This document shows, piece by piece, positions 23,412 through 26,770 of a stretch of DNA of 64,000 nucleotides. The translations under genes and the position numbers were made by a program. Origin of the DNA: Dermabacter hominis NBRC 106157 (GTDB taxonomy: Bacteria; Actinomycetota; Actinomycetes; Actinomycetales; Dermabacteraceae). Numbering within the stretch: position 1 is the stretch's first letter; every line of letters starts with the position of its first letter. The stretch spans positions 496,001 through 560,000 of the forward strand of contig NZ_BCSI01000001.1 in NCBI RefSeq assembly GCF_001570785.1, written 5' to 3'. The notes beneath the pieces were generated by a model. The model saw only the letters and a list, made by a program, of their open reading frames with translations, did not search any database and was not told where the DNA came from.

Positions 23412-23590
23412 GAGCGCCTCCTCTCCGGGATCCTGTTTGGGGCGTGCGAGACTCGCCCCTGCATCTGACGTGTGCAGTCTAAGGAGCGAACCTGCATATT
23501 AACCCGAGACACCCGGGGTGCTTCATGGGAGGAGTAGCAACGTCGCACGTGGTTGCACTTTGGGCAAGCCGAGTGTGCGAAAGTAGCACC

Positions 23591-24022
23591 GTGAATGAGA
23601 ACAAGCAGGCGGGAGCGGTGAGCGTGCGTCTTGATACGTGGCTGCACGCGGTGCGGCTATTCAAAACGCGTTCCCTCGCCGCGAGCGCGATCAGAGCCTC
23701 GCACGTGCGCGTCGATGGCGAGGTCGTCAAGCCGAGCTTCCGCTTGAGCGTGGGCAGCACGGTTGCCATACGCCACCCCGGTTACACGAATGAGTACGTA
23801 GTCAAAAAACTGCTTGCGAAGCGTGTGGGGGCGCCACTCGCGCGCGAGGCCTATACCGACATCTCCGTTCCGCCGCCCCCGCAGCTCTTCGCGGCGCCAC
23901 CGCGACGTGAGCGTGGGACTGGCCGCCCCACGAAGAAGGAACGCCGGGCGCTCGACCGTCTGCGCGGTCGCGAATCGCAAAACGGCAGGTGGACGACCAT
24001 TTTCGACAATGATGAAAGTTGA
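23591..24022 (+). CDS. S4-domain RNA-binding protein (Hsp15/HslR-like)
   Basis: 143 aa. A single S4 domain runs from VRLDTWLHAVRLFKTRSLAASAI through HVRVDGEVVKPSFRLSVGSTVAIR (~12-60). A long basic tail follows (RRERGTGRPTKKERR). This is the HslR/Hsp15 architecture; Hsp15 binds stalled 50S subunits with nascent chains after heat shock. It lies directly upstream of clpB, and its stop codon is inside the HAIR-like operator, which suits a heat-shock link. The start is uncertain: GTG at 23591 is used. GTG at 23618 or 23624 is closer to the S4 domain, and the latter has GGGAG at good spacing. Confidence 0.82.
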   Translation: MNENKQAGAVSVRLDTWLHAVRLFKTRSLAASAIRASHVRVDGEVVKPSFRLSVGSTVAIRHPGYTNEYVVKKLLAKRVGAPLAREAYTDISVPPPPQLFAAPPRRERGTGRPTKKERRALDRLRGRESQNGRWTTIFDNDES

Positions 24023-24040
24023 GTGGAATAGACTCAACTT
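24016..24040. promoter_or_regulatory. HAIR-like HspR operator upstream of clpB
   Basis: Perfect inverted repeat AAGTTGAGT-N7-ACTCAACTT. The HAIR consensus bound by HspR is CTTGAGT-N7-ACTCAAG. The TTGAGT/ACTCAA core and 7-base spacer match exactly; only the outermost base of each half differs. It overlaps the stop codon of the S4 gene and lies 112 bp upstream of the clpB start. HspR itself is not in the window. Confidence 0.85.
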
Positions 24041-24050
24041 TGGTGGCGTT
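24025..24050 (+). promoter_or_regulatory. Candidate SigH/SigR-type promoter of clpB
   Basis: GGAAT (24025-24029), then 18 bases, then GTT (24048-24050). This matches the GGAAT-N18-GTT consensus of actinobacterial SigR/SigH oxidative and heat-stress promoters. The -35 element lies in the spacer and right half of the HAIR repeat, so a bound repressor would block it directly. Confidence 0.65.
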
Positions 24051-24151
24051 GCATAGAGCGTAAGCGTGAGAACGAGGAAAGCTCGGCAACCGTCGGACCT
24101 GCCAGGCCACAACCCCGCTCCACGCACACCCACGTGAAAGGAGCGGAAAAT

Positions 24152-26770
24152 ATGCAATTTTCCTTCACCCAACGCTCGCGCGAAGCCGTCGAGTCGGCAA
24201 CGCGCGCGGCGGAAGCACTGCGCAACACCAACGTCACCGGTCTGCACTTGCTCGCGGCACTGCTCGAACAAGAAGACTCAATCGCGACGGCTGTCCTCAC
24301 CGACACGGGCGTCCACATCGGCGCGCTCAAAGAGCGGATCAACCAAGAAATCCAGCGCTTGCCACGCCTCACCGGGAGCACCGACCAAAAACCCGTCTTC
24401 CAGGGCGATGGCTACGACGCACTTGAAGCCGCCGGGAAAGAAGCCGGCGCCGGCATGGGGCGAGGGGCAGAAGGGTACATCTCGACCGAGCACTTGCTCT
24501 ACGGCATCGCCAAGGCCGTAAAAACCCCTGGCGACATCCTCAAAGACTTCGGCGCGACCCCGAAAGCGATCCGCGCCAGCATCGCAAAACTCACCAAAGG
24601 AACAAGCATGAACAAAGAAAACCCGGAAGGCTCCTTCAAGAGCCTCGAAAAATTCGGGGTCGACCTCACCGCCCGCGCGCGTGAAGGCAAGCTCGATCCC
24701 GTCATCGGCCGCGATAGCGAAATCCGCCGCGTCGTCCAGGTGCTCAGCCGCCGCACGAAGAATAATCCCGTGCTCATCGGCGAGCCCGGTGTCGGCAAAA
24801 CCGCCGTCGTCGAAGGCCTCGCCCAGCGCATCGTTGAGGGAGACGTGCCCGAATCGCTCCGCGGCAAGACCCTCGTCTCGCTCGACCTTTCCTCGATGGT
24901 CGCCGGCTCGAAATACCGTGGCGAATTTGAAGAGCGCCTCAAGAGCGTCCTCGACGAAATCCGCGACTCGAACGGCAACGTCATCACGTTCATCGACGAG
25001 CTCCACACAGTCGTCGGCGCAGGCGGCACAGGCGAGGGTTCCATGGACGCCGGCAATATGCTCAAACCCATGCTCGCGCGCGGCGAACTTCGCATGGTAG
25101 GTGCGACGACCCTCGACGAATACCGCGAACGGATCGAAAAAGACCCGGCTCTCGAACGCCGCTTCCAACAGGTCTTCGTGGGCGAGCCAAGCGTCGAAGA
25201 CACGATTACGATCCTCCGCGGCCTCAAAGATAAATACGAGGCGCACCACAAGGTCACCATTTCAGACTCGGCGCTCGTCGCGGCGGCCTCGCTTTCCGAT
25301 CGCTACATCAACAGCCGCCAGCTCCCCGATAAGGCCATCGACCTCATTGACGAAGCTGCCTCGCGCCTGCGGATGGAACTCGACTCCTCACCCGTTGAGC
25401 TCGATGTCCTTCGCCGCCAGGTCGACCGGCTCAAGATGGAAGAGCTCGCCCTCAAAGGCTCGGATGATCCAGGGTCGCTCGCGCAACTCGCGAGCGTCCG
25501 CGAGCATCTCGCCGCGCGCACCGAGGAGATGAACGAGCTCTCCGCCCGCTGGGAGCGCGAGAAGTCCGGCCTCAACGAGGTAGGCGAGCTCAAGGCAAAG
25601 CTCGAGGATCTTCGCATGCAGGCCGATCGTGCCCAACGCGAAGGCGACCTGAGCCGTGCCTCGAAGATCCTTTACGGCGACATCCCCGAGCTCAAAAAGA
25701 AGCTCGTGGAACTCGAGCACGGGGAAGGTGCCGAGAGTCGAGCTGATGACGAGGAGCAAAAGCCGCTCGTCGCCGACAAGGTCGGGCCCGACGACATCGC
25801 CGGCGTGGTGTCCTCGTGGACCGGCATCCCCGCTGGCCGACTCCTCAGGTCCGAGACGCAAAAGCTTCTCGACATGGAGGACATCATCGGCAAACGCCTC
25901 ATCGGTCAGCGCAAGGCCGTCGCCGAGGTCTCTGATGCCGTGCGCCGCTCACGTGCTGGAATCGCCGACCCGAACCGTCCTACGGGATCCTTCCTCTTCC
26001 TCGGCCCCACGGGCGTTGGCAAGACCGAACTCGCCAAATCCCTCGCCGAGTTCCTCTTCGACGACGAACGCGCAATGGTTCGCATCGACATGTCCGAATA
26101 CGGTGAAAAGCACAGCGTCTCCCGCCTCGTGGGTGCGCCCCCGGGCTACGTTGGCTACGAAGAGGGAGGGCAGCTCACCGAGCAGGTCCGACGCCGCCCC
26201 TACACCGTCATTCTCCTGGATGAAATCGAGAAGGCTCACCCGGACGTTTTCGACATCCTCCTCCAGGTGCTCGACGACGGCCGCCTGACCGACGGCCAAG
26301 GGCGCACGGTCGACTTCCGGAACACCATTGTGATCCTCACGTCCAACTTGGGCGCGCACTTCCTCCAGGACGAGAGCCTCGACGACAGCGCGAAACGCGA
26401 GGCGGTCATGAACGCTGTTCGCGCCGCGTTCAAGCCCGAGTTCGTCAATCGTCTCGACGACATCGTCATGTTCGATTCCCTCAGCCGCGAGGAGCTGCGC
26501 CGCATCGTTGGCCTCCAGGTGGCGTCGCTTGCCGCGCGTCTCAAGGATCGCCGCATCACCCTCGAGGTGAGCGACGCTGCCGAGGACTTGCTTGCGGAAC
26601 GCGGATTCGACCCAGCGTATGGCGCGCGCCCGCTCAAGCGTCTCGTGCAAAAGGAGATCGGCGATGCGCTCGCGCGCCTCATCCTCACGGGCGAGGTCAC
26701 GGACGATCAGAAGGTCACGGTTGACGTGGAGCACGAGGAGGGGGCGCCGGCCCGCCTCGTCCTCCACTGA
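24152..26770 (+). CDS. clpB: Chaperone ClpB (Hsp100 disaggregase)
   Basis: Hexameric ATPase that threads and refolds aggregated proteins with DnaK. 872 aa, full length. It has a Clp N domain (1-~145), first AAA+ with GEPGVGKT at 210-217, a long coiled-coil middle domain (~400-530, [18 protein letters not shown] onward), and second AAA+ with GPTGVGKT at 618-625. No ClpP-binding IGF loop is seen, as expected for ClpB. The ATG at 24152 has AAAGGAG (24136-24142). An in-frame GTG at 24134 precedes that site and is not the start. Control is probably by HspR and a SigH-like factor. Its TGA stop is also the first three bases of a repeat. Confidence 0.97.

Follow-up and report, generated by a model that had tools for sequence, protein, structure and literature searches.

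A predicted SigH-type promoter with its −35 element inside a predicted HspR operator upstream of clpB in Dermabacter hominis, and its conservation among Actinomycetes

Upstream of clpB in Dermabacter hominis, the predicted operator of the heat-shock repressor HspR (HAIR) encloses the −35 element of a SigH/SigR-type promoter. We propose that the two sites form a composite switch, in which HspR would mask the −35 element, so that clpB expression would require both that SigH is free and that HspR is gone. Our estimate of the probability of this reading is about 0.87.

The stretch of DNA analyzed here (64,000 nucleotides; hereafter the window, to which unprefixed positions refer) contains a perfect inverted repeat at 24015–24041, AAAGTTGAGT-GGAATAG-ACTCAACTTT, which we predict to be a HAIR operator for HspR and to which no strand is assigned. 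Its arms, AAAGTTGAGT and ACTCAACTTT, are 10 bp each and are separated by a 7-base spacer, GGAATAG. The preliminary description of this region had correctly recognized a perfect repeat with a 7-base spacer, but its 9-bp arms turn out to be one base too short on each side. It had also related the repeat to HAIR through the core TTGAGT-N7-ACTCAA, which is indeed present at 24019–24037. Measured against the CTTGAGT-N7-ACTCAAG type of operator preceding chaperone genes, the core before clpB is exact, and the outermost consensus pair is G/C rather than C/G. The exact core has no other match in the window or in the whole genome of 2,155,270 bases (2.16 Mb). When three mismatches were allowed, the window yielded 16 matches against 11.9 expected, a count so close to expectation that relaxed matches represent noise. 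The genome-wide search for additional HAIR copies suggested earlier did reveal one upstream of dnaK, with a single mismatch and about 35 kb away from the clpB operator. The clpB and dnaK copies are the only ones in the genome with at most one mismatch, and HAIR-like sites with two mismatches are those designated L003–L010.

The spacer of the operator is filled by GGAATA (24025–24030, forward strand), the −35 element of the SigH/SigR-type promoter; the published SigH −35 consensus is GGAAYR (PMC4803200). As had been claimed, GGAAT (24025–24029) lies inside the repeat and is followed by 18 bases and then by GTT (24048–24050, forward strand), the −10 element, in agreement with the pattern GGAAY-N18/19-GTT. 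Judging by the usual distance between the −10 element and the start at ECF promoters, transcription is predicted to begin at 24056–24060 on the same strand. On its own, GGAAT-N18-GTT occurs at near chance frequency and is not significant, with two occurrences in the window against 1.11 expected from shuffled sequences and 41 in the whole genome; its fixed place within HAIR is significant. The window count alone is therefore insufficient, and it is the conservation across the order that excludes chance as the source of the SigH-type match. The case for a composite site likewise rests on the exact HAIR together with this conservation. A promoter scan of the region 23450–24200 detected no sigma-70-type promoter.

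The downstream gene (24152–26770, forward strand) encodes 872 residues from the ATG at 24152 and scores 1246.4 bits against the ClpB disaggregase model TIGR03346, above the cut-off of 1232.1. A ribosome-binding site, AAAGGAG (24137–24143, forward strand), is found 8 bases 5′ of this ATG, and the longest clpB reading frame begins at GTG 24134. On the other side of the operator there is an Hsp15-like S4-domain ORF (23525–24022, forward strand; PRK10348, E-value 2.9e-11, below cut-off), the start of which is uncertain, GTG 23618 being an alternative in the same frame. Its stop codon, TGA 24020–24022, falls within the left HAIR arm, which bears out the overlap noted in the preliminary description, and an Hsp15-like stop codon inside HAIR is also seen at locus L012. 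The position directly before clpB is taken by an Hsp15-like ORF in this genus and one further genus (g4); most of the family lacks this arrangement (window 23525–24022, L012, L043 and L044).

The composite reading presupposes that the genome encodes both regulators, and both genes were found. The hspR gene is the last one in a dnaK-grpE-dnaJ-hspR operon, and its product scores 143.7 bits against NF047375 (cut-off 105). A single gene in the genome matches the model of SigH-type sigma factors (TIGR02947, 274 bits, cut-off 251.6). Directly after it there is a 108-residue RsrA-like ORF containing HLGECAAC, so that the sigma gene has an adjacent gene for a zinc-type anti-sigma factor, albeit one whose RsrA-like score (48.2 bits) is below the curated cut-off (62.5). 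A SigH-type site, GGAAT-N18-GTT, is located between sigH and the RsrA-like ORF (L101, G000:C3:56016-56041) and resembles the separate rshA promoter of Corynebacterium glutamicum. Further GGAAT-N18-GTT sites precede dnaK as well as an RbpA-like and a primary-sigma-like ORF, the latter two named by eye from their sequences. The site at the RbpA-like ORF (L112, G000:C4:120422-120447, reverse strand) is 73 bases 5′ of it, and RbpA is a known SigR/SigH target. The one at the primary-sigma-like ORF, GGAATAGATCCGAATATCGGGCCGTT (L110, G000:C3:247455-247480), is 93 bases 5′ of it. Streptomyces hrdB possesses a SigR promoter, and by analogy the L110 site may represent the same wiring. Together, these sites look like an ordinary SigH/SigR regulon.

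How widespread is the arrangement? Each of the 23 clpB loci sampled within the family carries the composite site; the nearest named relative, filed as Helcobacillus/Dermabacter, matches at 91% over the ClpB N-terminus. The survey of the order, which used the ClpB N-terminus, returned 70 loci, 67 of them with a HAIR. In 57 of these 67 promoters GGAA(C/T) is positioned at exactly +6, with GTT 17–19 bases further on, and almost no other offset recurs. Three of the 67 have GGAA(C/T) at about −24, and seven have a HAIR without a recognizable SigH promoter; these exceptions come mainly from family f6 (five with HAIR only and three at −24). Some low-scoring N-terminus hits may be ClpC rather than ClpB, and the three loci lacking HAIR (L069, L191 and L196) may be among them. 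At the level of the class, a search that tolerated one mismatch found the composite in 110 of 297 genomes, while HspR and SigH score above the cut-offs of their models in 287 and 286 of them, respectively. Base conservation was assessed for 78 non-redundant composites, for which GGAA(C/T) had been the selection criterion. At the fifth base of the −35 element, 87% of them have T, and at the sixth 99% have A. Conservation thus extends to bases that were not part of the selection, namely this A, CTTTG after the right arm and, in 85% of the composites, a G immediately after GTT. Upstream of the HAIR arms, the 78 composites share no conserved block.

At dnaK, the two sites are combined in a different register. 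Here, GGAAT begins 24–25 bases before HAIR, and the GTT of the −10 element overlaps the left arm; the clpB and dnaK registers are 30 bp apart. The dnaK register was observed in the present genome and in all 24 dnaK HAIRs of the family that had been picked for an exact core. Among the dnaK-upstream HAIRs listed in the family, none of 25 has GGAAT in the spacer, which indicates that HspR recognition alone does not account for the spacer sequence at clpB. Within the class, the dnaK-register pattern, with one mismatch allowed, is present in 120 of 297 genomes. Where coordinates were checked (e.g. G331, G370, G562, G050, G108 and G000), it is oriented like hspR and lies about 3.8–4.1 kb upstream of it, a distance that fits the dnaK promoter. 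A small number of clpB promoters use the dnaK register, and in two genomes (G386 and G500) both registers surround one HAIR.

Lineages without the composite site differ in the position of clpB. In families f29, f31, f32, f35 and f36, which lack the composite, clpB follows hspR in the same orientation at a distance of 128–639 bp in 13 of 13 genomes in which both genes could be placed, and because of this proximity it can share the promoter of the dnaK operon. In nine genomes clpB is 2.8–31.5 kb away from hspR, and in all nine it has a HAIR with at most one mismatch. A number of these entered the comparison because they had not yielded the full composite, and in those the SigH match is decayed or shifted by one base. 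The comparison of clpB positions is to be read as a natural experiment and not as a statistical test. In three f36 genomes (G404, G356 and G471), a variant HAIR, TTGAGTGGGAACGACTCAG, is located between hspR and clpB, with GGAAC one base off. In Streptomyces-like genomes of f37 and f35 (e.g. G337:C1:5852707-5852749), there is a recurrent element, GGAACATTC...GCATTGAGTCGGCATAGCTCAA, away from both dnaK and clpB, perhaps marking a further gene controlled by both HspR and an ECF sigma factor.

Taken across Actinomycetes, these observations could reflect a merged HspR/SigH element at chaperone genes that takes one of two fixed registers. Lineages would switch between the registers, or lose the element as clpB joins the hspR operon; repression would always strike one of the core promoter elements, and selection would maintain the AND logic. 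We consider the odds of this broader scenario to be roughly even.

Given the sites, their conserved geometry, both regulators and the anti-sigma gene, we modeled binding, masking and the stress response on Mycobacterium tuberculosis and C. glutamicum. Guided by the SigH/SigR-type ECF sigma factor, RNA polymerase would read GGAATA and GTT and start about 7 bases downstream. HspR, for which DnaK serves as co-repressor in relatives, would bind the HAIR arms flanking the −35 element and thereby cover it. Thiol oxidation or heat would free SigH from the RsrA-like anti-sigma factor, and HspR would leave the DNA either when damaged by heat or when misfolded proteins draw DnaK off; both HspR–DnaK co-repression and its heat-triggered loss are established in other Actinobacteria (PMC8223512). 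Expression of clpB would then be turned on when the two events coincide. This AND logic follows from the presence of a single SigH promoter, the position of its −35 element beneath the repressor and the lack of a detected sigma-70-type promoter in 23450–24200. Under such logic, thiol stress could induce clpB only if it dislodged HspR as well, for instance through recruitment of DnaK elsewhere. Thiol stress that leaves HspR in place is predicted to activate ordinary SigH genes and to leave clpB uninduced. Against the switch, read-through from the Hsp15-like gene could provide clpB transcript without SigH.

The most serious competing explanation takes the wording of the preliminary description, heat and thiol stress acting through one shared site, in its literal sense: the sites would be independent, and either loss of HspR upon heat or release of SigH upon thiol stress would suffice to induce clpB. 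C. glutamicum offers a known case of dual control, and the overlap of the sites stands. Sufficiency of either signal is less likely, since the sole visible promoter has its −35 element under the repressor and full expression should require more than one of the two events; clpB was, moreover, missed in M. tuberculosis SigH ChIP-seq (PMC4803200). We therefore regard independent induction as unlikely.

Another explanation, which we find still less probable, accepts HAIR as a genuine HspR operator and treats the GGAAT/GTT match as fortuitous, with clpB driven by an HspR-repressed housekeeping promoter. It is in line with the near chance frequency of GGAAT-N18-GTT alone, with HAIRs in some relatives that have other spacers and no SigH match, and with the similarity of TAGACT within GGAATAGACT to a sigma-A −10 element. 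Chance is difficult to reconcile with the exact offset in 57 of 67 promoters, and a sigma-A promoter sharing the HAIR site was rejected, as the scanned region offers no candidate and no conserved block 5′ of the arms could act as its −35 element. It would be more surprising yet if the repeat were mainly an RNA hairpin terminating the Hsp15-like gene. The transcript does fold well (−14.2 kcal/mol, z-score −4.5), and the stop codon of that gene falls within the repeat. However, no T run follows the repeat, which is also absent from the terminator scan; it is kept in other genera with different or no upstream ORFs, and the would-be loop is conserved as GGAATAG. A terminator or other RNA element was accordingly rejected, and the composite switch remains our preferred reading.

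Several parts of this arrangement have counterparts in known systems. In C. glutamicum, dual control has been reported (PMC3489674, PMC10012870), and the dnaK promoter P2 is of the SigH type and under HspR/HAIR (PMC10012870). The clpB promoter proposed here shares both features, but in the dnaK loci surveyed HAIR is positioned over the −10 and not the −35 element. In the M. tuberculosis ruc gene (Rv0991c), a heat-shock repressor site overlaps a SigH promoter (PMC7448276), but there the repressor is HrcA, whereas at clpB of D. hominis it would be HspR. The closest parallel is M. tuberculosis clpB, whose SigH promoter is overlapped by the HspR site; the authors of the SigH ChIP-seq study linked their failure to detect clpB to this overlap (PMC4803200). 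The gene, the two regulators and the overlapping sites are all shared with the present case. Genomes of family f22, apparently mycobacterial, have a geometry identical to that of the clpB site described here, although their −35 element is mostly GGAAC and that of Dermabacter clpB is GGAAT; in C. glutamicum, GGAAC promoters are read by SigE too (PMC10012870). The clpB type of overlap is thus already published for M. tuberculosis, and what is added here is its breadth and the two registers. In the open-access literature, we found no paper describing the two registers or the breadth of conservation, and a text search of open-access papers for the composite sequence gave no match. The two registers provide a natural series for comparing how masking of the −35 and of the −10 element affects the response, and the overlap at M. 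tuberculosis clpB emerges as widely conserved wiring rather than a local accident.
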